NCBI GenBank assembly: GCA_030141605.1
Contig: JAQGDQ010000540.1
Coordinates: forward strand, 62,001 to 126,000
Source of the DNA: Tubiluchus corallicola
Lineage: Eukaryota > Priapulida > Priapulimorpha > Priapulimorphida > Tubiluchidae
Direction: 5' to 3'
DNA: 64,000 nt
Under the pieces are notes generated by a model. That model saw only the letters and a list, made by a program, of their open reading frames with translations. It ran no database searches and was not told the DNA's origin. A program made the position numbers and the translations under genes. The stretch's first letter is position 1, and each line of letters starts with the position of its first letter. Below are positions 32,571 through 60,473 of the stretch, piece by piece.

Positions 32571-32689
32571 ATTGGCGTCCATTTCACTAAGATAGAGTTC
32601 ACACATTAGCAGGTGGACGAGAAGAGCTTCCGCCACGTGAGAGTGCACGTGAAAGTACTATAGATAGTGATTCTGATCAAGGATGAGCA

Positions 32690-34201: not shown

Positions 34202-34205
34202 TTGT

Positions 34206-35408
34206 ATGATTCCTATTTTAAGACCATCGTCCACTTCTGCTCTACTTGATAGTGTTGTTTCCAAACCTAGTGCTAGAATACAAGGTTGGGCTTTAAGACT
34301 GCAACCTCATACTTCTGACCTTGTGTATCAGTCAGGCAAATCAAATCCTGCTGACTATCTGTCGAGACATGTTACAGAGAAAATCACTATCAGTAAAGAA
34401 CAGAGGTTGGCTGAAAGTATTGTAAACTATATATCTGAAAATGCTGTACCAAAACCTTTGCCTCTAGATGAAATACAGCATACTACTGAAAATGACCTTA
34501 CTATACAAACTGTAATTAAGGCTTTGACTGATTGGCATATTTACAAAAACGAACCTGGGGTAGATTACACTATTTATAATAGCTGTCAGTTGCTCCAAGC
34601 TGAATTGTCGGCAACTTCTGACTATAAACTCCTACCTAGGGGCAATCACATTGTGACCCCTAGTGCCTTACAAAACAAGATTGTGAATCTAGCTCATCTT
34701 AGACATCAAGGTATAATAGTAAAAACCAAAGCAGTGTTACGAGAAAAAGTTTGCTTCAGTGGAATAGATAACATAACTGAAAAAGTAGTTAGAGACTGTT
34801 TAACTTGCCAAATGGCAACTGACATGAAGCAGAACGAGCCGCTGTCAATGTCTCCACTCCCTCCTGCTCCATGGATGGAACTAAGTGTTGATTTCGGCTA
34901 TTTACCGAACGGTCAACACCTGTTCGCGGTTATAGATCATTATAGTCGATACCCATTCGTAGAAATTCCAATTACCACCTCAGCTAAAACAGTCAACCCC
35001 ATACTTGATAACGTTTTACTTTTGAGGGGTATTCCTCTCATCATTAAGAGTGACAATGGCCCTCCGTTTAACAGTTTCGAATTTCAGGAATATGCACTTA
35101 AGACTGGTTTTAAGCATCGGAAAATTACACCCCTATGGCCTCGTGCCAATGAAGAAGTTGAACGTTTTATGGGCACGGTAAAGAAAGTCATTAAAGCAGC
35201 TTTTGCACAGTCTTTAGACTGGAAACAAGAGTTACGTGATTTTCTCTTAGCATATCATGCTACTCCACATAGAACTACAAAGTCAGCCCCGGCTACTTCA
35301 TTGTTCGGTTCTGCTATTCGTACAAAACTTCCCGAAATATTACATCCAATCAGTGAAAATGAATCGAGATCACATGATTCTGTTGCAAAAGCAAAAATGA
35401 AATTTTAA
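34206..35408 (+). pseudogene. RNase H end and integrase, the longest intact part of the element
   Basis: 400 codons without interruption. The start is the RNase H tail and connection (KPSARIQGWALRLQ, NPADYLSRH). The integrase HHCC finger follows (H-x3-H around AHLRHQG, CLTCQ near 34798-34812). The DDE core shows Asp in LSVDFGY (about 34885), Asp in IKSDNGPPF (about 35050) and Glu in EEVERF (about 35152). Family-typical HGQ/NG motifs are altered (WPRANEEVERF). It lacks an upstream start of its own and so is part of a broken pol. Confidence 0.9.
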
Positions 35409-37633: not shown

Positions 37634-38292
37634 CAGTAAGTGCTCTCTTAATGACTCCTCATTTAGCTATGTTGCATTTTAATGACGCTGAAGATTTGAC
37701 GCCTTTTTTTCACTTAACGACTCTTCGTTTTGTTTTAACAACAATTTTTTTGCTTTGCACAAAGCCAATTTTTATTTTATCAACAACTTTTTTTGCTTAA
37801 CTTGATGCCTTTAAACAGTACATATTGCATTATTCTGTTCTAAAAACACACTAGTAATGTAAACACTAATGCTAGCCGTTCGTGTCAAGCAGCGCCGGGG
37901 AGCAAACTATATGCAACCTTTTGTTATAACAACCAAACTAGTGAGTGCTAAGTTTCTAGATAAAATTCCCAAGCTCACCCCAGGGCTTGGCTTTGACTCT
38001 GCTGCAGTGTTTATTGTTTAGCAGTTGCCTAAACTTAAAGTCAACCAAAGAGAAACCGCTGGCTAGCTAAGTAAGCTATATAGGTAGTTTCAAGCAAGTA
38101 GAAGAAATTAATTTGTAGAAACGTGAGTACAGCTCGTAATTTGTATGATTAAGCAGCATTGATATTTGCCTCTGGAACGTATCCCAATTCTTTTACATTA
38201 CTTTCTTTGGAAGTCTTGGCTCCATTAGTGATGTTTCGCTTAATGTAGCATTTTGCTGGAATGCATTAGCATCGTTAAGCGAGGACTTGCTG
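37634..38292. mobile_element. pogo/Tigger-like MITE, ~659 bp
   Basis: The left end TA-CAGTAAGTGCTCTCTTAA and the right end (reverse complement) TA-CAGCAAGTCCTCGCTTAA are mismatched inverted repeats of at least 19 bp, flanked by TA. Such CAGTN-TCCTCGCTTAA termini with TA duplication are typical of pogo/Tigger-group Tc1-mariner elements. No transposase frame is inside. Confidence 0.7.
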
Positions 38293-39114
38293 TATTTATT
38301 TTTCTGCTAGTCATTGTATAACCCTGGATATTCATAGATGCAGAATACTTGCTTATAAATCTTGTTTTTTCTGTCGGTTCTCATCAATGAAGATCTTTAC
38401 CAGAAACTTGTTTTCCTTAGGCTTACAACCTCACGATTCAAGAAGAACATCACTTTGAGTAGTAATTGGCTTTGTTTGGGATCAGTATTTATTAAAAGAA
38501 ATCCTCCATGTAACAAGTGTAATCTGCGGGAATGACATCAAAACTGCAAGTTTAAACTGCGGGAACAAACTGCAGTTTGTAGCAAACTATGTGAAATGTT
38601 GAAGTCGAGTGGCCACTAAAAACTGCTGTCAATTTCTGAAATTTATGTATATTATGAGTTGTAACTTACAGAACTTAGATCGTGGAATATTGATAAATTC
38701 TGGGGAAATGAAAATCTAACAACTTTCCCAAGCCACATTTAACATTCTATTTCTTTCCAAGTCCACTAAAAAAATTGAAATTTTTCATCACAGTCTATTT
38801 TGCTGAACTTTTTTACTCTGTTTTTAATCAATTTTTAGGCTGTCGGCATTAAATGGTAGCATTAAAATACTATAGGAATGAAAGCATTGGAAAATATTTT
38901 GCAAATAAATTGAAAATATTATGTTGTACATTGTCTTTGTAATAATTTAATCATTTGTTTTCTCTAGCCACTCTATACTTAGGCAGCTTTGTTTACTTTT
39001 TTATAGGCCTGTCTGATTATTGTTGTTAGTCGCTTTGAACATTCTGGGACTGTGTTTATTTGTTGATTTTCTGTGTATTTATTCTGACAATTTTCAAATG
39101 TCGTAAAAAAATTA

Positions 39115-39330
39115 AGGAAACTGCCCAAGTGTCCATTTGGGTGTAAATTCCAATTAATCCATAAAATGCATTACATATCTGGTCTGCCTATGAGCATTTA
39201 TGCTCATTAGCTATAGTCATAGTTATAAAAATGCCAATTGCCAAATTGTAGTCTGAACTTGAAGCCTTCAAAATAAAATAGGTCAGTAACCTACTTTACA
39301 ATGTGTGCATTTTGAAGGACAGGCATGTGG
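39115..39330 (+). repeat. Dispersed repeat, second locus
   Basis: Diverged copy of the block found three times in the tandem array (18975-19235 and its copies), same orientation, lacking about 75 bp internally. Confidence 0.7.
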
Positions 39331-39559
39331 CTTTTCCATCTACCTGTACTTACAGTACCTGTTCATAATAATACTAGCTAAACATTTATCTATAGTAAGC
39401 TATTTATCGAAACTCGTACACACAAACTGTCATTACATTATATTACAACCTTATAATAATCTAGCTGCAAATAGTATGTTAATACCCCCGTTCATGACAC
39501 ACATTGTTACAGTATAAATTTATTATATTAAGTCAACATGGTTAACCAATAGGCATGTA

Positions 39560-39741
39560 CAGTCAAACCTTTATATACTGCCTACTTTGGGACTGCAAAA
39601 AAGTTGGTGTTACGGAAAGTTTGTTATTATAACGAGGTGCAAACAAGTCTATGCAGACATATATATTTTGTTTTGCCAAAAATTTCGTATGAAGCGAGAG
39701 GTTGGCATTATGAAGAGGGGCATTATAACGAGGTTTGACCA
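39560..39741. mobile_element. pogo/Tigger-like MITE, 182 bp
   Basis: The left end TA-CAGTCAAACCTTTATA and the right end, read on the other strand, TA-TGGTCAAACCTCGTTATA form mismatched terminal repeats with a TA duplication at 39558-39559 and 39742-39743. Internal subterminal TTATAACGAGG repeats support the pogo-type assignment. Confidence 0.75.
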
Positions 39742-40178
39742 TATATCACTAATATGATTAGACTCTCAAGTTTACCGGAAGGTATTTTGTACATTATAGA
39801 GAATTATTTATTACATTAAGTTAAGATTGTATATACTATTTTGACATGTTTCATAACCTACAGGTGGCCCTATTTGAAACAAAAACTTCCTACATGCAGA
39901 CTGTAGGCCAAGAGCTTTTAATTGATGAATGCATAGATGTTTGTGAATGTTAGAACCTGCTAAAGACAGTTATCTTAATAATGATTTAGAGTGAGCTCTA
40001 GGTGCGATTTTTATTGCAAATGTTTTTTTATATAATTAATAAATATATTCAACAATTACATAATTAATTAATTGGTGTAATAAATACTAAATTGAGTTGT
40101 TTAATAAGTTAATTCTTCTTAATTATTTAATTCTTAATAAATTTAGTTAGCTGAACTATTCAAGTTTTTGCAGAAAGC

Positions 40179-40394
40179 ATGAGTGTGCCTTACGGAAAGA
40201 TGGGTGAGGTGAACGACGTGGAGCCTCATCCTCAGCCTGCAGCTGCTCCTCCACCAGCAGTACCTGCAGTAGTCATACCTGCAGCACCTGTTCAGATACA
40301 ACACGTAACTGCTGTACCTGGAGTGACACAACCTGCACAGCCGCCTGAATCAAAACTGTCTGTTAGATATGCAAAACCTCTATCAATTATACAG
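40179..40394 (+). CDS. First coding exon of CD20/MS4A-like gene
   Basis: 72 codons from ATG 40179 to a GTAATC donor, ending in phase 0. A strong acceptor (AAGTTTTTGCAG, ending 40173) lies only five bases before the ATG. So there is an upstream untranslated exon or, if the host uses it, a trans-spliced leader. The peptide is a cytosolic N-terminus rich in Pro and Ala (repeated PAAAPPPAVPAV-like stretches), ending in KLSVRYAKPLSIIQ. That end flows directly into the VLCGCIA start of each downstream terminal exon and forms the beginning of TM1. No second copy of this exon is seen in the window. Confidence 0.85.
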
Positions 40395-42034
40395 GTAATC
40401 TTTAATCTTTGTAATGAAATTAGTTGGCCACAAAACATGGCAATAGGTTTTTAGATATTGAACCAGATTGAACCTATTGATAAACCAGAACTAATAAACC
40501 AAAAAGTATATATCTAATCAACGATTAACACATCCTCTATCATAGTGATTACTCACAAAGTCCTTACTAACCCTTCTAAACCCTGCTTAACTTGTTTTGT
40601 CCTGATTCACTGTTTCGTTTTCTTCTTAATCTTTTCACATTTTATTGAAATCACTTGAACAACCTCTGCTGTAAACAAGATGACAATTAGTTTAAAATTT
40701 TCAGCATCTGGTAAAAATCTTGTATATGTTTTCAAATGCGTGGTTGTTATGACATAGTAATGTTTAATGTATTTTGTCGAAATAAAAATAAACCTTAACA
40801 TGAACTAACTTAATGGGTTAATGGTTAGTTAATTAAAGGAGAAATTAATAGTCGCAATTCAATATTAAAGGATCTGGGACCAAATTAGGGCCTGATCGAA
40901 CATGTGACGTGCTAGCTATATATATATGGCCCCCCAAAATAGCTATATTGCCGGAAACTTATTGCTTTCCAAGGAGCCTGGGAGTGGCTTCTAAAATTTC
41001 CTGACTGGATAATGGAGATAACCTCCATTTTACATTCAAACACTCAATCCAATGGCATAATTATTACAAAGATGCTGTCTGCTTCTTTGTATAAGGTGAG
41101 AGATTTTTACAGAGTGAGATAAGTAAGAGAAAAGAACACTGAGGAATATGTAAATCCTTCTATAAGTGAGGAAGCAGTAAGTTGAATTGGCAATGAATTC
41201 AGTGAAACCTTATTACTTGAGCTTTTCAAGGTGCTCGTTATTACCTGAAAGACATTTTTGACTTGCTAAACCTTTAATTGGGCTTTGTAGTTTCAAATCA
41301 TCAACAGTTTTTGGTGAACTGTGAACATGTTTCAATTGTGGCATAACTAAAAATGGGACGTATAATAACATTGCTATTGCATGAAGAGATGATCGTCACC
41401 TTTTAGGTTTCAGCTGTTTAACCACCTCAGGCTAATAAGAAAACCATGAAGAGTTGTGCACTCCAGAGCACAGCATTTTTTGTATTGCAGAAGTTTTTGT
41501 CTTGATGTAGTTATTCAGCCTGCAGTAGAAGTGCTATATTTGTTGTAATATTTGCATCAGTTTTCATATTTTGCTAATGAATTTCTGTCAATTTGATCTA
41601 TTTTTTTGACATTTTTTATTTATTTTTGGTATCGTGTCTCAAGAATGTTTGTCATGTAGGTGCATGGATTAGACTTCAAAGTGGGCAATCTTGACCTTGA
41701 ATAGTCTGTAACATTATGCATGTGTTTTTTCTTCTGTCACTTACTCAAAATAATAAGTCATGGCCTGCTGTGATGCTGTGTGTAGTGATAGGATGACCTT
41801 TGCAGTTATGCACCTTTGTCGTCTGCATCTTTCTTGTGGTTTCTTGGTGAATTCCATTTTATGTAGACGATGATGATGCTAATGACCATTTTGACTCGTG
41901 ATCTCATGGTCATAAATTTTTCAGTGACTATGTTCAATGAACTAACTTCAATGTTACATGAAAGTTTTTTTGCCATTGGCTTGTGAGGTAGTAGTTTCTG
42001 GAAGTTTGTTCTTATTTTTCACCTTAACTTTCTC

Positions 42035-42590
42035 TCGTTTTGCCCGGCAACACCATTATAACATCCCTGTAGGGTGTGGCTTATGGCGTGGAATTTTTTC
42101 GTCATTACCGGTGTTATTGGCCTTGCTGCTTGTGTGAAGCCAAAACACAGAGGCATGATAATTGCATTGATGGCCTTGTCAATTATAGCAACAGTGTTTG
42201 CTGTCAAAATAGTGATAATAAGTTCAATATACATAGCGATTACCTGTAGTTCTTTTCGATATCAATGTTGAGCTTCCAACTCTTGGTATGGATACTAATG
42301 TATTATGCATGCCGGAGAGCAGTCAGATGTTCCTTAGCTGCTTATTGTATTCAACTGCTAATCGGAATAATGGAACAGGTATCATCTATCTGGCTGTCTA
42401 TTCTCTGTTCTAAAGTTATCTGTTGTGGAAACAAGTATCATCTTCTGATCATGTACTACACAGCTGGTCAGCCACCACCACCTGTTTCTGACCCCATTGC
42501 TGAAGAACAAACTTTTCAGCAAGTTGGACATGTTCACACAATATCCAGGAATGCAAATTCACCCAACGTCCTACAGGCATAGAGGTACTC
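42035..42590 (+). pseudogene. Decayed terminal exon copy 1 of the CD20-like gene
   Basis: Homology starts inside the exon at the bases encoding FARQ (TTTTGCCCGGCAA) without the upstream acceptor and TM1 part. WLMAWNFFVITGVIGLAAC and the TM3 block follow in one frame to a stop at 42269-42271. The TM4 part and tail continue in other frames to about 42580. The C-terminal PPPY has become PTSY. It cannot be spliced or translated as the intact copies are. Confidence 0.85.
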
Positions 42591-43299
42591 TTTCACTAGC
42601 TAGTTGCTTTGTAGGGAATCAGGTTAGCTATATTTTCACTTGCTGGTTTTACAGGTTGGCTGACTGTTGGCTGATATAATTGACTTGTGACCTATTTACT
42701 TACAACTACAGATATGAAATTTTGCATAAGTGAAGCTTGTCGCTGGTTACATAAACATATTTTATAGGCCTTTTTTAAAGTTCTTTGGGGTGAGAGGAAG
42801 GCCAGCCATACAATGGACAGCCCAAACATTATTCATTACAAGGCTACAAAATTGGACTAATTGGTCATTTTCACTATTTCACTGTTCTGCAGTGATAGAA
42901 CTTAATAGCCTTCTAGTCCTCGTTTCAGCCACAACGATAAATAAAGAAGATGTGAATTATTACAGCTTTCCAACACAACATTTTCTGCTTAACTATACCT
43001 TATATCATTATTAATATATACGATACCAATACCAATAATTCCTGCATTCTTTAAACCAGTTTTATCAAAAAAAACATACTCCATTCCATTTATCACAGTT
43101 TTTGGCCAGCATAATTTATAATCTCTTCTGCACCTTAAACCAAAGTTTAAGTGACCAAACTCGATCTAAGATGACTGGAGACCCACTTACGTTCTAATTG
43201 ACTTACAAAGAACAATTTCATTTGTTGTTGTTTGGTCAGTCACTTACAGTTACTGAGTGGACTAATATTTTTTCATTTGTATGGAGATGATATCGTTTT

Positions 43300-43590
43300 T
43301 GTCAACTTTTCCTTTACTGCCGATGCTATTGGTCTTACAGCTTGTACAAAGCCAGAAAAAAGGAGCTGGATTATTGCTTTGATGGTCATGTCAATTATGG
43401 CAGCACTGCTTGCTGGAATTTTTATGATAGCAATTTCAATAAACATATCTATTATGTGGTTCACTTCCTTGTCACTGCTAAGATTTTAGCTATTCGTGTA
43501 AAAAAAACGAATCTACTTGCGTGTGTGAGTGCTAGAGGATAGCTAGATGTTCCTTGGCTGCAATTTGTGTTCATCTGTTAAATGGACAAA
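43300..43590 (+). pseudogene. Decayed terminal exon copy 2
   Basis: Only the TM2 end and TM3 (AIGLTACTKPEKRSWIIALM...) are recognisable, followed by a stop at 43487-43489. A scrap of the TM4 start (GATGTTCCTTGGCTGC) lies near 43546. The 5' and 3' parts are lost. Confidence 0.8.
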
Positions 43591-43880
43591 CGTGACTCAG
43601 TGTTTATCCCTTTCTCTTTTCTGCTCTTTCAATCATATAAGCATTATCATAATAAAATCAGTTTTAGTGAATAACCTACCTATACAGCTATGATGCAACT
43701 TTTGCTTGCTGTATTGTCAAGTAGAGCTCCATTGGATGTGTCATAGGCACCCAGCTAAGCTAAGCAGTTTAGGTAAAATGTAATTATTATGGTTTGCGCA
43801 AACCCTGTGAAAGAATGTCTAAATTTCTAACTGTTTTCTAAATAAAACCAATTATAAATTTACAAATCAGCACGCTTCTA
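43560..43880 (+). repeat. Duplicated flank, pairs with 48315-48600
   Basis: Non-coding sequence behind decayed copy 2 is clearly related to 48315-48600. Shared landmarks include TCAAGTAGAGCTCCAT, CAAACCCTGTGAAAGAATGT and CCAATTATAAATTTACAAATC. It shows that whole segments, not only exons, were duplicated. Confidence 0.8.
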
Positions 43881-44243
43881 CTTAATTCAGCAATATATAT
43901 TAAGTTATTACAAAAACGAATAATTATTGTACCCATACAATGCATTATGTATGTAAGGAAAGTGCATGGTTCACTAAAAAATGGTTTTTTTCTGCCGGAC
44001 TAATAGACAAAAATCACCATTAGATTTAATAGAAATGAAAGATGGTAATAACACTTTGGCCAAGATAAAAGTGATAGCTATAATTCCATTACTTATCATA
44101 ATACCATTCTCATTTCTCACTGGCATGATCTAGTCAGCAGAATATTTATTTTGCACTTGTTATTGCCTAATGTGCTAAATTTTTTGAATTTTTCTGCCAC
44201 AAAAGTTCCAAATGAATTAAATATGCACTTTGTTTTTCTTCAG

Positions 44244-44849
44244 GTGTTATGTGGATGCATTGCCGTCATTGCAGAGATAACTGCAATTATTGTGTTTGCC
44301 CGGCAGCTCCGTTATAATTTTCCTATAGGACAGGGCATATGGTGTGGAATTTTTTTCGTTATTGCTGGTATTATTGGTTTTGCTGCTTGTGGAAAGCCGA
44401 AAAAGAAAGGCTTGATAATTGCTTTGATGGTCTTGTCAATTGTAGCAGCAGTTTTTGCTGGCATTTTATTGGTATCAAGTTCAATATACATGGCAGTTAC
44501 AAGTGGTTATAATCGATACCGCTGTCAAGATTCTAGCTACTCAGACGAAACTAATGAATATACTTACACCTATGATTATGCATGCCAGAGAGCACTAAGA
44601 TGTTCCTTAGCTGCTTACTGTATTCAACTGCTAATGGGAATAACGGAACTGGTGTCGTCTATCTGGGTGTCTGTTCTCTGTTGCAAAGCTGTCTGTTGTG
44701 GAAACGCGTATCGTCCTGTGATCGTGTACTATGCAGCTGGTCAGCCACCGCCTATTTCTGTCCCGATGGCTGGAGGACAAACTTTTCAACAAGTTGGACA
44801 TGTCTCTCAGTATCCAGGAGTGCAGATTCACCCCCCTCCCTATGTATAG
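44244..44849 (+). CDS. Intact CD20/MS4A-like four-TM terminal exon (copy 3)
   Basis: 201 codons after the acceptor TTTTTCTTCAG. With the first exon this gives a 273-residue protein of the CD20/MS4A type. TM1 completes at VLCGCIAVIAEITAIIVF. TM2 is GIWCGIFFVIAGIIGFAAC. TM3 is LIIALMVLSIVAAVFAGILL. A long loop holds several Tyr and a Cys pair (RYRC ... YAC). TM4 spans about YCIQLLMGITELVSSIWVSVL, followed by a CCKAVCCG cluster (possible palmitoylation) and a cytosolic tail with FQQVGH and a final PPPYV. Stop at 44847-44849. Family members are plasma-membrane or endosomal regulators, some linked to Ca2+ flux; this one's role is unknown. PPPY is a WW-domain (Nedd4-type) ligand pattern. Confidence 0.88.
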   Translation: MLCGCIAVIAEITAIIVFARQLRYNFPIGQGIWCGIFFVIAGIIGFAACGKPKKKGLIIALMVLSIVAAVFAGILLVSSSIYMAVTSGYNRYRCQDSSYSDETNEYTYTYDYACQRALRCSLAAYCIQLLMGITELVSSIWVSVLCCKAVCCGNAYRPVIVYYAAGQPPPISVPMAGGQTFQQVGHVSQYPGVQIHPPPYV

Positions 44850-45164
44850 GCATAGAGGTACTATTTCACTAACCAGTTGCTTTCTAAGAATCAGGTAAGC
44901 TAATTTATGCAACTTCACTCGTTGGTCTCACAGGTGGGCTGATATACTTGACTTGTGACATATGCACTTCCAACAACAGAATGAAATTTCGCATAAATGA
45001 AGCCTGCTGCTACATAAACTTATTTTATGGGCCTTTTTTAAAATAGCTACAGCATGAGGGGAAGACCACCATACAAATAGGCAGTCCAGTCACATTTATA
45101 AGCTATAAGTTCTATGCAAATATTCATTGCAAGGCTACAAGATTTGAAGAATTGGTCATTTAAC

Positions 45165-46290
45165 ATAGAACGTTTGACTTCTACTCCCAGTTTCAGTTAC
45201 ATTGATAAATAAAAATGATGTAAATTATTAAAGCTTGCTAATAAGACATTATCTAATTAATTACGTTATTATATCACATAGTATTACTAATAATTGCTGT
45301 ATTTTTAAAACTAAGGCAGTTTTTGCATGAAAAAACATACTCGATTCAATTTGCCACAATTTTTGTTGCCAGCATAGTTTGTAGTCACTTCTACATCCAT
45401 ACCTAACTCAGTCTAAATCAATTGGAAATCTGCTATTTCCAAACTGACTGACGAAGAACAACTTCCTTTATAGTCACTGGGTAGATTATGGCTTTGTTTC
45501 TTATCCTTTGCAGCACAGGCATTTTATTTTTTTTCTTTGCCAGACACTGGCTCATAACATTACTTTGTTTTGCTGCATAGGCATTTCACAATTCTCTCTT
45601 CCTCTGTTTCAGTCATTCTCTGACTTTGCAGCCTTGTGACATAGTAAAAATCTAAAGTCTTAGAGACCTCTCTATATCTGTGAGGGTTCAATAGCTGATA
45701 TTGCTAGGCAACTCTTAGACTGAAAGACCTGTGTACTGAGGCTCCAATACTGAGATCAATCTTGAATCAAAAGATGAAATAGTGAGACAAAAGAACATTG
45801 AGGAACGAACCAATAGGTGAGAGTAAAGTTAACCGAGTGGGCAGTGACCTGAGGGAAGTCTTCTTACTTAGACTCTCTAAAATGTTCTTCGATTACATGA
45901 AAGGCAATTTTGCTTTGCAAGAACTTCAGTCTTGGTAATTTAGCTTTAATTTTTTTACTTTACTGAAAAATATTTATGAAGCATCGGTACACAATAGCAT
46001 GCATACTGCATTAACATAGTACATAGTACCATGGTACCCATTCCATTTGTTATTAAGTTCTGGGATGATAAAAAATGGCACGAAGTTTATGTTGGTTTTC
46101 CTGAATGAGCTGCAGTTGCTTTGTTTGATTTGCTAAGTTGTACTGGTATCCATTACTCCAGTTCTAGGCAACATTGCGTTACGATTAGATCAAAGGAATC
46201 TGATCTATACCTTTAGGTACAAACTTTCAAATTAACACCAAAAATGGTCCAACTTAATTAATTTTGCACTTTTGTTTTTTTCTTCAAGCA
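45165..46290 (+). repeat. Duplicated flank, pairs with 48595-49381
   Basis: 45165-45540 matches 48595-49000 and 45955-46290 matches 49055-49381. The second pair runs up to the splice acceptor of the next terminal exon and includes GATTAGATCAAAGGAATCTG. About 400 bp differ in between. Confidence 0.8.
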
Positions 46291-46415
46291 TTATGTGGAT
46301 GCATTGCTGTCGCCGCAGAAATAACTGTGATTACTGTGTATGCCCAGTAGCTCCATTATACAACACTTATACGGCAGGGCGTATGGTGTGGAATTTTTTT
46401 CGTTATTGCCGTTAC
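46287..46415 (+). pseudogene. Decayed terminal exon copy 4 (5' fragment)
   Basis: The acceptor is damaged (TTCTTCAAGC instead of TTCTTCAGG). The first ~125 bp still encode the TM1 region and the start of TM2, with a stop in place of the ARQ arginine (CCCAGTAGCTCC). Homology ends in the TM2 region at about 46411. Confidence 0.8.
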
Positions 46416-49381
46416 TAATATATTTTTCATCGATAAAATACAATGCATTCAAGTAAGTGTGGACAAAGCTATGATTTGACCTTAACGTTAAAAAATGCTT
46501 CAGCGATTGCCCTAGTCTCTCCGTTACTGGCATGCCGATTAAGCTTTCCCACATGTAAATACAGCGAGAGTTAGTGTTACACTAGAGGAGTACACACTAT
46601 AACAAACCTAAACTGTCATGATCATGCAAATGAAAACACCAAATACACGAAATTTAAAGGACGTTAAAACAAATAAAAAATGACTGAATTTTTATGGACT
46701 CTATGGAAAATTGTGTTTGAGAATTACATCAAAATAATCAAATTAGTACGTTGTCATTTTCTTTTTCAATGGTTCATGTGTTAGTCCTTTCTTAATCTGC
46801 TAACCTTAATATTTCATCACTTATATAAATTACTAGGTAATAATTTCTTTATCCAAATTATATCGTTACTCCCACAACTAATATGCTTTCATACAGTCCA
46901 GTTCCTCATTTTAGCTTTGTCAGATTTACAAATTTTATTTGTTTGTTACTACTGACAGCCTTCACATGGAATATTGTGGAAACTAATTATTGTGCACTGC
47001 TTAGTATTATGCACAATATTGTATAATACTGTAGTGACTTAAGAGATTCGCTTGCTTCTGGGCCAGAATAAGAGCTGTGATATCTTTAAAATTGCATCTG
47101 GTTATGATTTTACCACAGGAGGCACAGTTACTGGCCATAATGATTTTGGTGTGCCAGCTTCAAAAACATATATTTTGTGCCATCAAGAGAAAATGTTGAG
47201 ACACCTCAAGTGTTTTTTCCATCATGTATGCTTGAATGTGCATTCGTTTCATTTTCCCTAAATGCTTACATTGTTGATACGCACAGCTTTGCACTGGAAC
47301 AATCTGATAATGGTTGAAACGCCATCTAATGGCCTTAGTAACACATGTTCTATGCATCTTACTGTGCCATAGGACTATCCTAGTTTCGGCCATGGTACTA
47401 CATTTTGAGTAGGCTTATCCATAGTGTGCATTGATGAATATAGTGGCTTGACTCCATCGTGCTACTATGATATTGCCAAATGCAGGAGTGCCTAAGTACA
47501 TTCAAAGTGTTTCTGTTTCATAGACTAAGTGCATAACCTCTTATCATCTCTGGAATGATGCTTTGATGATTCTTCATCACTGGTTAGCACTTGTCATTTA
47601 CCAATTTTATTAGTATGGGCAAATTATGATGCAAAAAGTGATAAAGTGAAACAGTATAATCCGTCTGTGACATCTGAAAGAATAATGTTCATTACTGGCT
47701 AGTTTTATGCGTCACTGAACTTTTTCTTTGTGTGTTCTTTTCAGCCGGTCCGTTTCATTCAGCAGTTTCGGCAGTTTGATTCAGTTGTGAAATTTATTTC
47801 TTCTGCTAGGGCTGCCTGGCCAATGGCCAGTTATTTCCAGCTTAGCTTTGATGTTGGAAGTGAAGATAATTCATGGGACAGAACTTCGCTGTTGTTTGTG
47901 TTATGGTTGAATTCCACTAACTGTTAAATAAGTTATGTCAATATAATGTATTTTGCTCAATCCAACTTGTATGGGGCTTCTTCATCAATGCCATGTGCAT
48001 TCATTGAGGTTGTCTCGTAGACCCTTGTGACCACTTACTTTCAAAATACGATTGTACTGGAATAACCATGTTACCGAATTGACTACACTAAAGATAACAG
48101 CACATGTTTCCTGTTTATAACATTAACTATGCTGAGGGTGTTGTTGTGGAGCTAAAAGATTTATACAAACTCCTAGTTTTTTGCAGAGTTCTTGCTTGTT
48201 TATAATATCTGCGGCTATTCTGATTTTGGCTTCTATCTTTTATGTGCCTTGAAGTATGGCGCTATCTGTGATCGTGCCTCATAACTGAAATGTTCTTCTT
48301 AGAATCTCTCTTTCACAACAAACATAATGACTGAGTGTATCCCTTTGTCTTTTCTTCTCTTTTAGTCAAACAAACATCATCATAATGAGTTTTACTAAAT
48401 AACCTACCCATACAGCTATCATGCAACTTTTAGTTGCTATATTGTCAAGTAGAGCTCCATAGGGCATGTCATAGACATCTAGCTAAACTAAGCATTTTAG
48501 CTAAAATGGTATACTTGTGATTGTTATGGTTTTCCCAAACCCTGTGAAAGAATGTTTAAATGTCTAACTGACACCAATTATAAATTTACAAATCTTCTAC
48601 TCCCGGTTTCAGTTACAATGATAAATAAAAATGATGTAAATTATTCCAGCTTGCTGATAACACGTTATCTAATTAATTACTTTATTATATCACATACTAA
48701 TAAATAAATGCTGTATTTTTAAAACTATGGCAGTTTTTACATAAAAAACATACTCGATTCAATTTCTCCAATTTTTGTTGCCAGCATAGTTTGTAGTCAC
48801 TTCTGCATCCATACCAAACTCAGTCTAAATCAATTGGAAACTTGCAATTTCCAACTCTTACTAGGAACAACTTCCTTTATGGTCGAGTTTCTTCGTTAGT
48901 CACTGGGTGGATTGGCTTTACTTCAAAACCAGCTGACGAACCATACGTTTCATGGCTTTGTCTCTTACGTTTTGCTGCGCAGACATTTCATTTTTCTCCT
49001 TGCCCGACACTAGCTCTTAACATTACATTGTTTTGCTTCATAGGCCCTGTTTTTTTAACTTTACTGAAAAATAGTGATAAAGCAACCGTATACAGTAGCA
49101 TGTATAATCCATTACCGTAGTGCGTAGTACTCATTCCATTTGTTAAGTTCTAGGATGATAAAAATGGTACGAAGTTTATGGTTTTCTGGTTTTCCTGAAC
49201 GGGTGGCAGTTGCTCTATTTGATTTGCTAAGTTGTAGTACTGGTGTCCCTTACTCCAGTTCTAGGCAACATTACGTTGCGATTAGATCAAAGGAATCTGA
49301 TCTATACCTTTAGGTGTAAACTTTCAAATTAATTCCAAAAAATGTCCAAGTTAATTAATTTTGCACTTTGTTTTTCTTCAG
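46416..49381. other. Intronic stretch between terminal exon copies
   Basis: Besides the duplicated flank, no exon is recognised in 46.4-48.3 kb. Short open stretches at 47052-47261 and 47730-47927 have no known domain. Confidence 0.4.
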
Positions 49382-49990
49382 GTGTTATGTGGATGCATTG
49401 CTATCGTTGCAGAGATAACTGCGATTATTGTGTATGCCCGGCAGCTCCATTATAGAATACCTATAGGACAGGGCATATGGTGTGGAATTTTTTTCATTAT
49501 TGCCGGTATTATTGGTCTTGCTGCATGCAGAAATCCGAAAAAGAGAAGCTTGATAATTGCTTTGATGGTCTTGTCAATTGTGGCAGCTGTGTTTGCTGTC
49601 ATTTTTCTGATTTTAAGTTCAATATACATATCGATTATAGGTATTTCTCTTCGGTATTTCTGTTACAGTTATGTCTATTCGTATCAAGCTAGTGAAAATA
49701 TTTACACTTACGATTATGCATGCCAGAGGGCACTCAGTTGTTCTAGAGCTGCTTACTGTATTCAGCTGCTAATTGCAATAATGGAACTTGCATTTTCTAT
49801 CTGGGTGTCCGTTCTCTGCTGCAAAGTTGTTTGTTGTGGAAAGACCTATCGCCCTGTGGTCATGTACGATGCGGCTGGTCAGCTACCATCTATTTCTGCC
49901 CCGGCGGCTGGAGGACAAACATTTCAACAGGTTGAACACGTCACGCAATATCCAGGAACACAGATCCACCACCCGCCTCCCTATGTATAG
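49382..49990 (+). CDS. Intact CD20/MS4A-like four-TM terminal exon (copy 5)
   Basis: 202 codons after the acceptor TTTTTCTTCAG, same phase as copy 3. The protein with exon 1 would be 274 residues. TM1 to TM4 are conserved (IIVYARQ, GIWCGIFFIIAGIIGLAAC, LIIALMVLSIVAAVFAVIFL, YCIQLLIAIMELAFSIWVSVL). The extracellular loop between TM3 and TM4 is the most changed part (FCYSYVYSYQASENIYTYDYAC). The CCKVVCCG cluster, FQQVEH and the final PPPYV are kept, with the stop at 49988-49990. The preservation of helices and tail with a divergent loop suggests a functional alternative isoform. Confidence 0.88.
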   Translation: MLCGCIAIVAEITAIIVYARQLHYRIPIGQGIWCGIFFIIAGIIGLAACRNPKKRSLIIALMVLSIVAAVFAVIFLILSSIYISIIGISLRYFCYSYVYSYQASENIYTYDYACQRALSCSRAAYCIQLLIAIMELAFSIWVSVLCCKVVCCGKTYRPVVMYDAAGQLPSISAPAAGGQTFQQVEHVTQYPGTQIHHPPPYV

Positions 49991-52900
49991 ACATTGAGGT
50001 AATCTTTCAGTTCTTGATCGCTGTGCAACGAATTTGCAAGCTATTGCATGCAGTTTCACTCGTTGATCTTGCTCTTGGATTTAGATACGTTGACTTGTGG
50101 CTTGTATGAAATTCCCCCGTAAATGGAACTCCTCGCCTAATACATGGTAAAAATACAAAGGCATAGGGGAATGTCACCATTCGAATGCACAACAGTTTTT
50201 GTAAGAAACTTCAACTGATAATTATAAATAGTCAAAACACAAAACGTTTTTGCTGGTTTTCTGAAACCTAAGTTACCAGCTATTTTTGCTCATTTTTGCA
50301 ATTTTTTTATGTTTTAAGTTGCTAAATTATTGTTTTGTAAATTGTTGTGTTGTACTGTGTTGTTGTATAATTGTATTTAGCATAGTTTTTTTTTGCTACT
50401 GGCCTATTATTCCTGCTTTGGTGCTAAAATTGGCTATTGTAATTGGCTGCTTCAAATTAAAATTCCAAAGAATATTTTTTGCTTAGTTAAATCTTGGTGT
50501 AGCCAACATTCATAGTATGGGATTGCATCTTCAAACACCAGCTCTTCCAAATATAGTATAAATATTTTAATAATGGAATGTGCAGTTGTATTTCAGGCAT
50601 TTCCTAGCATTTTTATATCTGCATAACATGTTAAGGTTAAGCTCAGCATACCTTTGAGCACTATAATCTTCCTGGAAACTTTTGGATAAATGGTACTATA
50701 AATTTATATAATGCTGTGCTTAAAACATCCAACCTGAAGTAATTTTGATTAAGATTTTGCCACAAAGGAAGAGTTCTGATTATTGATATTAACTATTATG
50801 AGCATTATTATGCTGATTTCTGACAGTTTTTTCTGAATTGAGTTTCAACTAGCATACTTACAGTTATGATTTACCATAACTGCATAAGTAATTCAAGCTG
50901 GGCTGCTCTTATTCTTATTGTTTCCATTTTTCTCTTACTTTTAGCTCCTTTTAAAGTCTTCTGCCAAATCACAAAATAGGAAATTCACTTCCTAATCTGA
51001 TAAACTCATAAAGATTCATTTACAGATGCTTACATTTTATATATTTACATTTAATATATTCACATAACTGTAATACTTTATAATCTTGTAGTCTTTGCAA
51101 TAAACATTTGCACAGAAATAGTATGCCATGCCTATAAAAAGAAGAATAGTTTTAGAGAATTGGGGCTCGATGAAAATGATAATGGAGAAGTAACTATAAC
51201 AGTAAGAGAAAATTAGTCGTCTCAGCTAACTATTCCTTATGATTTTAGATGCCAAATTGCAAAATTTGTATATTCCATTGTTACAAAAATGGGTTATCCA
51301 TCTTTTGTTCAAACCAGGTTGCAGTGCAGCTACTTGTAGACAAGTTGCAGTACAAGATGGTATTGTCTAGGTCTTCTTTCCATCTAAGAGATTGTGAGTT
51401 GATTACTGCGGCCGGAAAATACCAAAGGTTTTAAAATTGTACCTGCTGTTACTCTGCCTGCAGTGTGGTAATTAGGATAAAAGTGGGGTAATAATAGTCC
51501 CTGTTATGTAGATATAGTTTGTTATTTACAGCCAGCAAAACGCTCTTTGAGTTTAGTCTTAAATGTTTATCTAAAAGTCGACTTTAAATAAAGACCTTAT
51601 TATTATTTTTTTTATTTTTTTTTATTAAGCTAGCAAACTGGTTATCGCAATGTTCTTAATACTCACTCATTTTGTTCACAATAAGTCAACAGCAATAAAA
51701 CAAGAATTTAACAAGTTTTTTCTGCTGTGGCCAAAATGCAAGCATGTGCTTAGTTACTTGTAAAAAACAAGTGTGCGCTTGGTTAGTCGCAAGAAATTTT
51801 GCTAATTGCCAACTGAAATTACTGCCTTGTTGGATTTTCATCGTTTTGGACTGTGGACTATTCATTTGGAGAGTATGGCAAAGCTACAGGAAAAATGAAA
51901 CAGGACAAGGTAGTCTGTTAGTTTAATTATGTCTTTGTGTGATTAAATATTTACTTTTATGCTTAGGTTAGCAAATTCAGATTAGTGAGTTTTTTTGCAA
52001 TTTACACAGTACTAATAGCTAATAAAAATGATAAATAAAATAAAATGATGTCACATGCAGACTAGAGAGTTCTCTCTCAACTTATTGTGCAACTTCTCTC
52101 TGAGAGTAAACTTGCAAGTGTGAACGGCTTGGCAACTTCTCTCACAACTTATTCTGGTGCTGATTTAGATTATAATGACGAAGCCTAGCCAAATTGTGTA
52201 ATAACTGATAAATTACGATCTAATACTGTATGTGTTATGTCATGCAGAATTTAGGTTTGTACATTTCATACAAATTCGTTTCATATGATATTAAACTTAT
52301 TATTGAATTAAATTGCCCCGAACTGTAATTAAGCAATGCATTTTGTATAATACTAAGTTAACTAATTGAATCTCATTTAATTTGCTCTAAATATTTTCGC
52401 GAAAACTAATGACTTTTAATCAGTGCACCTTGGAGCTGCATATGTGCCACCACGCGCGATATGACAGAATTTTATTTGGCATTTACATTGGCATTCATGA
52501 ACTTAATAAGTAAGTTTTTTCTGGAAAAATAATAACAATTAAAATAAATGATACTGTAATCACTGTAGTCCAAAAAGTGGTATGATTAAGTACTTGCTTC
52601 ATTACAGAGCACTATAATATGGATTTCTGTTTCATTGTTTGAATAGATTTCTGTTTCCCGACTCAGTAAAGTCTCGAATAATTTCAATAATTTATTTGCA
52701 TGAGTTAGAACATAGCGAGTGAATAGTTTATTGATAAAGAACGATAGAAGGTCGTTATTGTTATGAGATATTTATGATATACACGAAGTCTCTGTAACAA
52801 TGTTGGTATGTAAGTTCAGCTCCATGTGTTCCAAAAATTTTGCATGATAATGTAAGCACATTAGAATTAATTACATGTATAATATCTACTGCTAGAGATA

Positions 52901-55227
52901 AATGTGTCGTATTTAATGTGCTCGGTATCTGATTTTAAATATAAGCATTAGTACCTTGCAGTTTATGTGTGAATGTATTTTTATAGTTAAAACACCACAA
53001 CTTTATTAAAACTTTTAATTTACATAGTTAAAAATCATGTCAAATGTTTCGAATAGCTAAATAGGTAATGAATAAGCAGACCAGTAGAAACGAAATTAAT
53101 ACAGTGAATTATGCGCTAATTATATGCAGAAAGCCAAATAGGTAAGGATTATGCGGACTTGTAGAAAAGAAATTGATATAGTAACGTATAGTTGAGTGTT
53201 TGAAAATAAAGTTAAGGGAATTGAACTGCTTTGTACATTAAGAGAAGGCTTATTAGGCTACATTAATAGACTTTGTTTTATTAATAAATTTCAGTTATTG
53301 CTAGCTCAGTGCTGAAATTATTAAAATCAGCTTTGTGACCAGAGACACAATAATGGTCATTAATGCTGGACTGAGGAGAATTTTTTAATTTCGTGCCAGT
53401 TCTAGATGAAATACTTAAATGTTACTTACTTATACCTATATGGCCAGATATCTTGATAAGCTGTGCTTGTTTGATTATGCACAAGCACCTGGATCATTAG
53501 GTTTCAAAGATTGTCATTGATTATGGTATAAACAGTGTCCTAAGAATCAGAAGTGCGGCGATAACTTCCAGAACAGAACAGTTTACTTCCAGTGAACATT
53601 GAATGACTGAGATGACAGAGCAATGGACCAGTAAACAGGAATTATCCATATTTCATGACTGATATACGAATCGGATACATAAGCTGTCAAATCAGCAATC
53701 ACCTCACAAGATGCAAGAATTAAGAATGTAGCTATGCACAGACACTTGCCACTTTCTCACGTCGGTCAAATTAGCTCAGAAAAAGAATTTATCACGTTTG
53801 TTTTGTTTCGGAAATCTTTCATCAATGCGTGCGCACCGAAGACAGGAAGCGATAAGAGTTTTATAAAACAATCAGAGACCTGCAGAGAACCCAGCGACTA
53901 GTATATTTTCATTTTTGCAAATGCTAATTATTTTCAGACCACTCTCACTGCCGGTCTGGGACCGGGAGTCGGCGCGGGCAACGCCTCCTGTGAGATCAAG
54001 ATTCGGGCATCCAGGTGCATGGCATAAATACCACTCTCTCTCTCTCAAGATGGCCATATTCCAGGAAAAAATAAGGGGATGACGATTGAAATGAAATCTG
54101 AAAAATATCAATTGAACAGTGGAAAAGACTATTTTCTAAAAATATAAAGGGCAGTTCTGCCCGAATTTGGGCGTCAATTTTGCTCGAATTTTTTGAAACC
54201 CGAAAATTTGGGGGGCAGTTCCCCCCTGCCCTGATGCATATCAACTGTTTCCATATGTCAGAAAATGCATGTTAACATAGCTCGTGATGCTCTTTTGGCC
54301 ATTTTGATTGCTATTTATGAAAATTGGAAGTAATACTTTTTGGACAGTTACTACAGAGGTGGCATTAGTGTATTATTGTACTATGAGTGGGAAAAGAAAG
54401 CAAAGCACAGGTTTTGTTTACATAAATAATTTAGGGTAGAGAACAATCTGCAGCCTATCATCACTTTGTGAAAGAACTGCAACTAGCTGCAAAACAACAT
54501 AATTATAAGCTTTTTCTTCTTTGCAAAGTGTATAGATCTTAAAATGAATGAGCAAAACTCGCCCGACCAGGAACTCAGTCATGCAAAAATGGTCACTGGA
54601 AACTTGAAAACTTGCTAAATCATCATAAAGGCAATTTCCCGTCTACGCATTGCCGCATGATGCATATTCATGTGATAACGATCATGTTCGAATGAACACG
54701 GAAATCATCACACATTATAGATTTCGTATTACATACACATGGAAACACTTCCACTTATTTAAATATAAACTGATGTGTACGCATCACGGCTCACGCATTA
54801 TACATTACCTTAAGAGTTCTTAAATAATCCCAGTTTTCTATTCATTACTTACTATTAATGAAAGTTCTCAGGGTAATTCATCAGGAGTCAGAATTATGGA
54901 AGAAAGTTTTACGCACTTACACAATTAAGAATTTTGTTATGTTTAGGTATGAGTTAATAATATATCTGTGTAAAGTAGTCTGTGAACTAGTTAAAGCTAC
55001 TGGCATCTTAAAAACAAATTTTCTGTTGAATTCTGTCTAAAATAAATGGAATGAAGTGATGGATTTGATTTTTTTTCTTTGTGTTTTGGATTGCAAACAT
55101 AATTTGCATCTATATTAATTTTTCAAGCATTCTTTTACTTCATGCTGAGATCTGATGTGCTTCGAATTACTTTTGGTTTGTATAAAAATTGTCAAAATGA
55201 GTTGCAGCACTTTTTCCTTTTGTTTAG
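49991..55227. other. Long intronic stretch before the last terminal exon
   Basis: 5.2 kb with no recognised exon. The stretch at about 53930-54240 is more GC-rich than its surroundings. It carries a (CT)n run and GGGCAGTT-CTGCCC and GGGGGGCAGTTCCCCCC-like palindromic pieces, and is probably a transposon fragment. The rest is AT-rich single-copy-looking DNA. Confidence 0.4.
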
Positions 55228-55839
55228 GTGACATGCGGATGCATTGCAAGCATTATAGAGGTAGCTGCTATTGTTATATAAGCCCAAGGACACTATCGGA
55301 TTCTCCCAATAGGAACTGGTTTGTGGTGTGGATTGTTCTTCATCATTGCTGGTTCTATTGGTCTTGCAACGTGCGCAAGTCCTGGAAGAAAAGGCCTGAT
55401 TATTTCTTTAATGATCTTATCCATTGTAGCTGCAGTGACTGATACCATTCTTATGATTGCTTGTGCGATATACATACCCATTTCTAACATATTCATGTCA
55501 GATTGTACAAGTTCTCAGTATTCATATGAAACTCAAGGCTTCAATTACACAACTGATTATGTGTGTCTGAGAGCAACTAGGTGGGTTTTGGCTGCATATT
55601 GTTTGCAATTGATGATTGGAGTTGCAGAGATGGTGTCTGCCATCTGGGTGTCAATTCTCTGTTGTAAGGTTCTGTGTTTTAGAAACACATATCGCCCTGT
55701 ACTTGTTTACTATGGAGCCAGTCAGCCACCACCTAGTTCTAGTCCATTGACAAGTCAAACTTTTCAGCAAGTTGGGTGTACCTCACAGCACCCAGGTATT
55801 CAAACACAACCACCTCCTTACACGCCAGTATATACATAG
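55228..55839 (+). pseudogene. CD20-like terminal exon copy 6, open except one TAA
   Basis: After the acceptor TTTTGTTTAG the phase-0 frame reads VTCGCIASIIEVAAIVI and then TAA at 55279-55281, where the intact copies have Tyr or Phe (TAT, TTT). Beyond it the frame is open for 186 codons with all features: TM2 GLWCGLFFIIAGSIGLATC, TM3, a Tyr/Cys loop with an NYT sequon, TM4, a cysteine cluster, FQQVG and QPPPYTPVYT. An AATAAA-rich stretch lies at 55980-55989. This is the most diverged copy, yet otherwise free of lesions. It may be a recent null allele, a base error, or a copy used in another way. I call it a pseudogene only because of the TAA. Confidence 0.75.
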
Positions 55840-57185
55840 ATTTTTTTGCTTCTGAGACTTTTTAAAAGAATACAAAATGATTTCAGTGAGGGCTTGGGGT
55901 TTTCTGAAGTTACAAGAAATGCGTGCCGTGCAGCAGAAAGTGCCAGACAATACTATTATGTATTTTGATTCCAGATATTTAATAAAATAAAAACTCATAA
56001 TTTATTAAACCAGTACAGTAGTTATCAATGGCTTGATATTGCTGAATGCATAGACTGTAATAAAATAGTTACCTGGCAGTCAGTAAGGATTATACTTAAG
56101 TAAAGCCTGTAAAATAATATATTATTAAATTTATGTGATGATCTTTCTAATCTGATTAATTATGGTATAACTTGCATAATGGAGATTCTTGTATTTGGGC
56201 AAAAATTGTGAACATTAAATTTAGGTTATGGCCTTGGTAAATGTAAATCATAATCCTTATACATATCACTAAGAAGTGGGCATGTGACAATCATGATTTT
56301 AAACGTTTTCCACGTCTTAATGAGCACAAAGATGCTGGCTTTGGGATACGCTAATAGATACACTAAGTTATTCTCGGTATTATTCAAAATTGTCATATTT
56401 ACACCACAGTTGTTTATGGTACATGATAATGATTGTAATACTAATTTTGATTATGATGTTGATTTGATTTGAAAGTTGAATATGTAAATTTACATACAAT
56501 GTTGGTGGATTTGGTGTAAGTTAAGGAATATTGAGTTTTTCTGGACAATATTCATAACCACATTTTGTCTTTATTTGGGCCTATGCCCTTTTAGATTTTT
56601 TTTGTTATGAATGCAAGTTTTTGAAAAAACTCAAATGTCAAAGGCCTAATATGTTGCGTGTAGATGTTGTTTACAATTGAATGATGAAATTGGTACATCT
56701 CATCAAAACTGATTTTGTAATGATTTTATTTATCATTTGTTCTCTATTACTTTTTTGGAGTTTGTTTTAGGTTTCTATGAGAATCTAACGTTATTATTTT
56801 TGTTCGAATTAATAGTTTGTTCATATAATATGTTAATACAATTGTATTTCATTTATTTAATATACAACTGATTTTTATTGTAATGTGATAGTGATTTGAT
56901 TTCATTAGCACTAACTTGAGTATCATGTAGATAATGCTTATATCTTTTGAGAATCTCCAACTTATGTAATCATATTGTACAATATAATTATATACTATGT
57001 AGTTAATAATGTCATAATCTTAACGCTGAGTTTACTTTATTGTTTTTTCTTTTATAAAAAGTATTTTTTGCTAAATTGCTTCCAGTTTATCATTTTTGCA
57101 GGATGAACGTTGGCTTCGCATAATATACAGTAATGTCAGCAATTTATTTTGGATGTATTTATACAATTAGTAACATTTTAGAACG

Positions 57186-57188
<3 letters not shown>
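55840..57188. other. 3' flank of the CD20-like locus
   Basis: Very AT-rich and without a recognised gene. It contains the probable poly(A) signal of the last terminal exon (AATAAAATAAAA at 55980). Confidence 0.4.

Positions 57189-57266
<78 letters not shown>
57189..57266. repeat. (ATT)n microsatellite
   Basis: About 25 perfect ATT units. Confidence 0.97.
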
Positions 57267-57267
<1 letters not shown>

Positions 57268-57794
57268 GTATTAATAATAAAACTCCACCTGCAAAAGTGT
57301 TAAATGAAATCATAAAATCGTTTATTGAAAAATCTGCATAGTATGGAATAACCACAAGAAATGCATTGTTGCATATTGCATGATTGCTATTACTGATAGT
57401 TAATATCACTTAATCAAGTATTGGAATGTTATTTTTTGCAATTCATGTATATTTATCATTATCCCATTTCACTCATTAATCCCTTGTTTTTATTTTTGTG
57501 ACTTCCACGTACAGTTTGACTCAAAAATTACTGTGTCAACAATGATAACTCTGAAATACTGTGTAAATCAGTTTCATATAAATAGTTTTACTGACAAACA
57601 TGTAAAATAGCTATACGTGAATGACTTAAGTATATTATGCTTATTGATTACGACTGTAATAAAACTATTAATGTGAGTGTCATGTATGCGTACCCCTGTA
57701 AATTTTGTTTGTGTAAACTTGTGAATTAAATAGTAATGTACCGTGCCAGTTCAGAAATGTGCGTAATGATTTGCTATTTCAGTCCACACATCGT

Positions 57795-58165
57795 ATGATA
57801 GCTTTGTATATCTACTGATACCCTCCCGCATTTTCTGATATCTTCGTACATCTCTTGATAGATTTTATGTCTTTACACATCTTTTGAATATCTTTATACA
57901 TCTTCTGATGTCTTCACACATGTTTTGATAGCTCCGCACGTCTTTTGGTAGCATTACACATCTTCTGATGTCTTTACGCATCTTTTGAAAGCTTTAAATA
58001 TCTTCGATTAGCTTCATGCATGTTTTCATGTCTTCAGTATTTTCTGATAACTTAATGCATGTGATAGCTTTAGCTGTCTTCTGATAACTTTATGCATCTT
58101 TGTACATCTGATATGTTCTCACACATTTTCATGTCTTATGTGTACTTGCTTCTGCATTCTAGCTG
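57795..58165 (+). repeat. Degenerate minisatellite, ~18-20-bp unit
   Basis: Successive units of the form ACACATCTTTTGATAGCTTT, with variants such as CATCTTCTGATGTCTT, run for about 370 bp. Units alternate between a GATAGCTT and a GATGTCTT ending, which suggests a ~38-bp higher-order unit. Confidence 0.85.
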
Positions 58166-59434: not shown

Positions 59435-59570
59435 CTTTTAGTAAAAAAAACTTATTTTTTGCTAGGGCATTTGCATCTATCAGATGGCTTAAATTGATAG
59501 ATCTTCAACGGAGGTGAAATTTTGGAACCTATAAACTAGCAAACGCATAAACAATAGACTGTAAACAATC

Positions 59571-60473
59571 ATGGTTCCAGTTAACCACCCTGTTCTGCTC
59601 CGTATGATCCGAGCATCTGTGGTTGCTGCCAACCATGCTGGCAACATCATTAAAAATGTCTTGAGAAATGGAAATCTGGCCATTGTTGAAAAGGGACATA
59701 ACGGTCCACAGACTGAAGCTGACAGATTGTCTCAATATGCCATTGTTTCTTACCTTTCTAAGAACTTTCCCAGATGTGAAATAAAAGCCGAGGAAGTTGT
59801 AGACTCCATATCTGTAAGACTGCCTGAACCGATTATCTTAAATGCTTCTGAATCTGAACTTATTAACATTGCGTGTCCAAAATACTTGCAAAACGTTACT
59901 GAAAAAAATATTGTCGTCTGGGTGGACCCTCTGGATGGCACTGCAGAACTGGTTAAAGGATCGTTAGACTGTGCGACTGTGTTAATTGGATTATCTGTAG
60001 ATGGTGTTGCAATTGCTGGCGTTATTCACCAACCATTTTACAAATCGAGCAGATCAGGCCGAACAGTTTGGGGTCTTATTGGCTATGGCGCTCATGGTAT
60101 TAAGGCAGTTAGTCCTCCCGAGGACAGAACAATAATCACTACTACTAGATTACAGGCCAGCAAAAGCGTCCAAAACGCCGTTGATGCTACTGCTGCAGAT
60201 GAGGTCTTATACACTGGTGGTTGTGGTAATAAAGTACTGATGGTTATTGAAGGTCAAGCTCACGCTTATGTGTTTGCGAGTGATGGATTAAAGAAATGGG
60301 ATACTTGCGCTCCTGAAGCTGTGCTACATTCAGTAGGTGGACGCCTCACTGATGTTCACGGTAAACAGATAACGTACCGCAATGATGAGAGTGCATTAGT
60401 CTCCAGTGGAATTCTGGCCACATACAAAAACCATTCTTGCTACTTGAGTAAAATTTCACCTATGCGAGGCTAA
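59571..60473 (+). CDS. BPNT1: BPNT1-like 3'(2'),5'-bisphosphate nucleotidase, intronless
   Basis: 300 codons in one exon, about the usual length for BPNT1 (just over 300). The enzyme class removes the 3'-phosphate from adenosine 3',5'-bisphosphate, a by-product of sulfotransfer, in the cytosol, using Mg2+. It is Li+-sensitive. Metal-site motifs of the inositol-monophosphatase superfamily are present: Asp51 in QTEADR, Glu74-Glu75 in IKAEEV, Asp119/Asp122 in WVDPLDGT, and Asp244 in KWDTCAPEA. The family-typical GEE reads AEE here, and the residue after DGT is Ala instead of Lys. GGCGNK and AYVFAS are also typical. The absence of introns in a region of many-exon genes suggests a retrocopy that has kept an intact frame. 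It may be the functional gene or an additional paralogue. Confidence 0.88.
   Translation: MVPVNHPVLLRMIRASVVAANHAGNIIKNVLRNGNLAIVEKGHNGPQTEADRLSQYAIVSYLSKNFPRCEIKAEEVVDSISVRLPEPIILNASESELINIACPKYLQNVTEKNIVVWVDPLDGTAELVKGSLDCATVLIGLSVDGVAIAGVIHQPFYKSSRSGRTVWGLIGYGAHGIKAVSPPEDRTIITTTRLQASKSVQNAVDATAADEVLYTGGCGNKVLMVIEGQAHAYVFASDGLKKWDTCAPEAVLHSVGGRLTDVHGKQITYRNDESALVSSGILATYKNHSCYLSKISPMRG

Follow-up and report, generated by a model that had tools for sequence, protein, structure and literature searches.

A single first exon upstream of six CD20-like terminal-exon copies in the priapulid Tubiluchus corallicola: a candidate alternative-last-exon array

Can one first exon serve several terminal exons that each carry a whole membrane domain? 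The question is raised by a locus of Tubiluchus corallicola, located in a stretch of 64,000 nucleotides (contig JAQGDQ010000540.1, positions 62,001 to 126,000 of the forward strand; C1963:62001-126000 in our numbering, hereafter the window). Here a first coding exon (E1) is followed by six copies of a terminal exon, which in its full form encodes about 200 amino acids (aa) comprising a CD20-like domain, the tail and the stop (Table 1). A preliminary description had proposed that one N-terminus is joined to several interchangeable membrane domains. We give an even chance to the reading that E1 and the intact copy A would form the main gene, with the second intact copy, B, and formerly also a third copy, C, as alternative last exons.

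The copies were detected by DNA self-comparison and tblastn, and both the number of six same-strand copies downstream of E1 and their states agree with what had been described, A and B being intact, C carrying a single TAA and P1, P2 and P3 being decayed. The upstream exon is likewise recovered as a single Pro-rich exon that ends in phase 0 at KPLSIIQ, its translation of 72 aa being followed by GTAATC. P1 and P2 are situated inside the E1-A intron, A and B each have an uninterrupted frame between the acceptor and TAG, and DNA identity is 82% between A and B and 66% between A and C. With A as the query tblastn returned B at E 1.6e-95, C at 4.5e-73 and P1 at 9e-50, and the similarity of the copies is therefore not due to chance. 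The described start, (V)LCGCIA, is retained by A, B and P3, and by C as VTCGCIA, but P1 and P2 are without it, as they begin around codons 18 and 37 of A. Similarly, the whole membrane part is encoded by the full-form copies but not by P3, which retains just codons 2-41 or so. E1, A and B share phase 0, and A and B have AG acceptors and TAG stops, which is the layout expected if A and B were alternative last exons, and the 20 nt directly 5' of exon B are the same as the 20 nt 5' of exon A. Poly(A)-like hexamers follow the stop after 359 nt in A, 466 nt in B and 142 nt in C, a weak signal in AT-rich DNA. The sole N run in the window (18519-18618) is outside the array, so no marked assembly gap conceals a first exon within it. 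No allelic contig, from which a second haplotype could show the stop of C to be polymorphic, was seen in the searched genome (343.5 Mb, 2,344 contigs), where the highest-ranking match of A on contigs other than C1963 is partial, with 62% identity. Genome searches for COX1 and for innexin, the latter as a control, gave no match and carry no information on the taxon.

By profile, the proteins of the array appear CD20-like. Against Pfam PF04103 (CD20) E1 plus A scores 39.3 bits, B 37.4 and C after its stop 30.9, all above the curated cut-off of 27.9 bits, and it is on this Pfam match that a possible kinship with vertebrate MS4A would be based. In a phmmer search of PDB sequences with A, CD20 chains were absent from the matches at E 10 or below, a single-sequence search being weak for this purpose. 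An AlphaFold2 model of A (two-sequence input, with B) has four long helices and a larger loop between the third and fourth transmembrane segments (TM3 and TM4), at a predicted local distance difference test score (pLDDT) of just 50.2. Helix positions were read from the sequence by eye.

E1 and A almost certainly constitute a gene, because their junction is of the type found in paralogues, the frame is intact and the intron of 3849 bp is within the range of the relatives. These relatives were obtained from a genome search with A, which yielded 41 matches at E 10 or below; 24 stretches around the matches were taken, and three more for follow-up of first exons. Fourteen paralogous terminal exons were checked (L001, L002, L005, L006, L009-L012 and two each on C676, C1712 and C2010), eleven further loci (L013-L016, L018-L024) being outside this set. 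A first exon or a remnant of one is present 0.4-4 kb upstream in 12 of the 14. Nine were found by mutual homology or inspection (L002, L005, L006, L009, L010, L011, L012 and both on C676), those of L006 and L009 being shortened and that of L010 cut at the 5' end, and three by codon scan and donor (both on C2010 and one on C1712). Of the two terminal exons on C2010, one is itself a weak match (E 0.033). No first exon was found for L001 (on C2164) in 7.4 kb and a further 9.9 kb upstream, nor for the other C1712 copy in 6.9 kb. Introns, where measured, span 433-4036 bp, and the first exons end in phase 0 at CAG/GTA, with a junction of about LQ/VLCGC in the close group; the Q/VLCGC junction of E1 and A is thus of the type seen in two-exon paralogues. 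Relatives in the same genome (C676, C2010, C920, C1856, C847 and others) resemble the window in the terminal exon, the phase-0 junction after ...LQ and the Pro-rich first exon, but they differ in having one first exon per terminal exon, which also applies to each member of the tandem pairs on C676 and C2010. Duplication in this family therefore usually involves whole genes, and the window is an exception, so that the contrast with separate tandem genes that the preliminary description had drawn is seen inside this genome.

Some further observations were made on the relatives. An acceptor-like ...ttgcag or ...ttcag lies just 5' of the start codon in the window (40160-40178) and in L002, L011 and L012, and a 5' untranslated exon may be located further upstream of E1 and of these three. 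In at least L013, L016, L018, L021 and L023 an in-frame ATG and the membrane domain apparently share a single open exon that is not interrupted by the phase-0 intron. First-exon-like sequence is expanded in L027 (C1569, around 225-1106) as repeats of the type AFAPERSFSASYASQIVN. In the stretch examined L025 (C2077) shows a first exon but no terminal exon, and together with L001 (C2164) this makes it seem that both halves of this two-exon gene type get orphaned.

The claim that no terminal-exon copy in the window has its own first exon withstood homology, profile, codon and donor scans, all of which were blank. No second first exon was found before B or C by tblastn with E1 or with seven first exons (E1 and six from paralogues), nor in the array by a profile hidden Markov model (HMM) of first exons, which was trained with E1 included so that the HMM score of E1 itself is inflated. 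A codon-likelihood scan of ATG-open phase-0 frames of at least 30 aa, with a model trained on paralogue first exons only, scored E1 at 39.2; the A-B and B-C intervals gave five candidates each, the best at -2.8 and none with a CAG donor. Among shorter frames at CAG/GTR or GTRAGT donors there was one of 9 aa between A and B and none between B and C. The genuine but distant C1712 first exon scored only -0.3 in the same scan, and a first exon in the array that is very short, much diverged or unusual could therefore escape it. Searching the whole genome for more copies of E1, as had been suggested, returned E1 itself and one place at chance level (E 3.1). When 38000-42000 was compared with 42001-58000, no more than three matches were obtained, 17-27 bp long and with a best E of 0.015, nothing upstream of P1 being duplicated, and the repeats of the array start at 42039; thus there is no sign that any duplication included E1, and the duplicated units seem to be without it. 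A first exon for each copy, as would be expected of ordinary tandem duplicates, was not found by the searches run, which yielded only E1.

The history of the array is consistent with tandem duplication of the 3' part only and not of a whole two-exon gene. In a FastTree phylogeny the window copies cluster with a support of 0.95 with C and 0.98 without it, C being outermost and B grouping with P3 (0.97). The split of B from P3 is ascribed to a later segmental duplication, in which three noncoding blocks differ at 110 of 977 columns (11%) and by 19 indels, of which 14 are of a length that shifts the frame. Birth and decay of cassettes in place, also part of the original proposal, is borne out by the coexistence of the intact A and B, C with its one stop, and the decayed P1-P3.

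With these blocks as a neutral yardstick, 4.3 frame-shifting indels and about 34 substitutions are expected on the B branch. B has no frame-shifting indel (P 0.013) and no stop, the chance of the latter being 0.17-0.30 for 30-40 neutral substitutions, and the joint chance that a neutral B would have kept its frame since the split from P3 is about 0.003 under these assumptions. Over the same period P3 became truncated and acquired stops and an altered acceptor. B was therefore probably used. Frame retention is, on this yardstick, stronger evidence for B than the codon counts. Exons A and B differ by a single indel, of 3 bp, in 606 aligned bases, and the ratio of nonsynonymous to synonymous rates (dN/dS) between them is 0.45 (NG86) or 0.63 (YN00). 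When changes were polarised with P1 and C, leaving 11 sites unpolarised, A and B together had 60 nonsynonymous and 31 synonymous changes (p 0.09). Divergence is concentrated in the TM3-TM4 loop, where 19 of 34 residues differ (A 83-116), as compared with 36 of the 167 other residues (Fisher p 1.1e-4), the limits of the loop having been set after inspection of the alignment. Polarised changes are 21:7 in the loop, a ratio of about 1.1 that is not above neutral, and 39:24 outside it, a ratio of about 0.61 (p 0.04). The loop therefore looks free to change and the remainder mildly constrained, and the ratio gives no sign of positive selection. Between A and C dN/dS is about 0.3 with dS about 1 and no frameshift, so that C retained a coding frame through most of its past, and the TAA looks recent, or may be an assembly error.

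How B could be expressed follows from its start. There is no ATG in its open frame before the third helix, and B, if selected, would therefore have needed an upstream start; the only candidate found is E1, 8987 bp upstream. If E1 is spliced to B past A, the two terminal exons would act as alternative last exons. The primary transcript is predicted to start at or before E1, and the usual route would be splicing of 40394 to A (44244) and polyadenylation after A. When A is passed over E1 would be spliced to B (49382), giving a product with the same Pro-rich N-terminus, another four-helix domain and another TM3-TM4 loop. Before it acquired the stop, C was probably a third alternative terminal exon. 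A newly arisen terminal exon would not require its own promoter, and unused copies would decay. We tentatively suggest, at somewhat less than an even chance, that this is a cassette receptor locus in which one promoter and one cytoplasmic N-terminus serve whole four-helix domains that are arranged in tandem and selected as alternative last exons. The exposed TM3-TM4 loop would evolve fastest, and new ligand-facing versions would be born by duplication of terminal exons without additional promoters. The several interchangeable domains originally proposed are matched by one first exon with phase-matched terminal exons, although the stop in C leaves at most two cassettes with a full product in the assembly.

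Several points weigh against use of B and C as alternative last exons. The predicted joining of E1 to B and to C is based on sequence and not on transcripts, C holds an in-frame stop, and the neutral yardstick consists of three alignable blocks only. Polarised nonsynonymous and synonymous changes number 23:10 on A (ratio about 0.86, p 0.41) and 37:21 on B (ratio about 0.66, p 0.09), so that codons alone are no proof of constraint since the split of A and B, even on A. Elsewhere in the genome an intact terminal exon is present without a found first exon (C2164, L001), and orphan exons therefore arise and remain open for some time. This bears on a serious, though less probable, alternative in which E1-A is the sole working gene, B a duplicate out of use, cut off from any first exon either later or from the outset and not yet decayed, and C and P1-P3 later stages of decay. 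That four of the six copies are broken, that no counterpart was found for the terminal exon on C2164, where 16.8 kb upstream was searched in two pieces, or for the first exon on C2077 in the stretch examined, and that codon constraint on B is not significant would all agree with it. On the other hand B has kept its frame since the split from P3, which is hard to expect of a neutral exon (about 0.003), and its acceptor end equals that of A over 20 nt.

It is also conceivable, but improbable, that B and C have or had first exons of their own, too short or too diverged to be recognised, and are separate genes that arose as ordinary tandem duplicates. This is what 12 of the 14 paralogous terminal exons would lead one to expect; first exons diverge fast, as the low score of the C1712 one in the very scan that found it illustrates, and C is old enough to have lost its first exon, two repeats having been inserted before it. 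Set against this are the blank homology, HMM and donor scans and the absence of a duplicated E1 flank, and the sequence that precedes B (48328-49381) was copied from noncoding DNA of the array.

The proposed use of E1 with alternative last exons follows a known principle. In mod(mdg4) and lola of Drosophila a common 5' exon is combined with one of many 3' variable regions, and for mod(mdg4) at least 31 isoforms with a common 5' exon for the BTB domain are given in the passages cited (PMC4667647). The likeness lies in the common 5' exon and the variable 3' parts. These are, however, BTB/zinc-finger nuclear proteins whose 3' parts can, according to the same passages, come from separate primary transcripts by trans-splicing, whereas in the window a single exon supplies an entire membrane domain as the variable part, and the splicing is a prediction. 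Clustered protocadherins and the 5' cassettes of Chelicerata Dscam are alike in that tandem cassettes are joined to a common protein part (PMC4835542, in the passages cited), but there the variable cassettes are 5' or have alternative promoters, while here the common part is 5' and the variable part terminal. Vertebrate MS4A/CD20 genes share the CD20-like profile, a small multi-helix membrane protein and tandem expansion with the window (PMC2826416; PMC11026480, both as far as cited here), and differ in that the window has one first exon for the whole array, the likeness being known from the Pfam match. MS4A diversity is treated as separate genes in the cited part of PMC2826416, where invertebrates were concluded to be without MS4A genes. 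In a literature search of partial coverage, with subscription journals mostly outside it, none of the titles listed described an MS4A array with a shared first exon. What would be new is thus a membrane-domain array of a CD20-like family, its use being predicted. If true, a family that grows elsewhere in the genome by copying of whole genes would grow here by copying of the last exon, and variants with one N-terminus would be under coordinated expression. The paralogues provide natural controls for why last-exon copying occurs here, and the birth and death of splice-ready exons is visible at several ages within 16 kb.

Table 1. Positions of the array and of associated repeats in the window
Feature	Position	Strand	Remarks
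E1, Pro/Ala-rich first coding exon, 72 aa	40179..40394	+	ends KPLSIIQ; CAG/gtaatc donor, phase 0
P1, decayed terminal-exon copy	42039..42573	+	begins at about codon 18 of A; frameshifts
P2, decayed terminal-exon copy	43306..~43600	+	about codons 37-134 of A; stops
A, intact CD20-like terminal exon, 201 aa + TAG	44244..44849	+	acceptor ...tgcactttgtttttcttcag/GTG
TM3-TM4 loop of A (residues 83-116)	44490..44591	+	where A and B diverge most
P3, truncated decayed terminal-exon copy	46289..46417	+	about codons 2-41 only; B is the nearest relative
B, intact terminal exon, 202 aa + TAG	49382..49990	+	Pfam CD20 match
C, most diverged terminal-exon copy	55228..55839	+	TAA at 55279-55281 (codon 18); rest of the frame open as far as TAG
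Pair of interspersed repeats in the B-C interval	52980-53423, 53434-54231		genome DNA search
Segmental duplication, source	43593..46417 (pieces 43593-43868, 45178-45582, 45950-46417)	+	self-BLAST
Segmental duplication, collinear copy	48328..49511	+	precedes and enters B; without a copy of A; self-BLAST

Outside the array the window holds an exon (15344-15703) that matches the sodium:neurotransmitter symporter family at its C-terminal end and, at 20987-31113, three near-identical copies, spaced by 4206 bp, of an overlapping pair of open reading frames (ORFs) of 299 and 336 aa. The first ORF of this pair has no Pfam match, and the repeat is a mobile element or an assembly repeat. ORFs of the long terminal repeat (LTR) retrotransposon type are found at 31662-35408, with an integrase core domain at 34194-35408. 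Downstream of the array a single open exon on the + strand (59565-60473) encodes a member of the inositol monophosphatase family.

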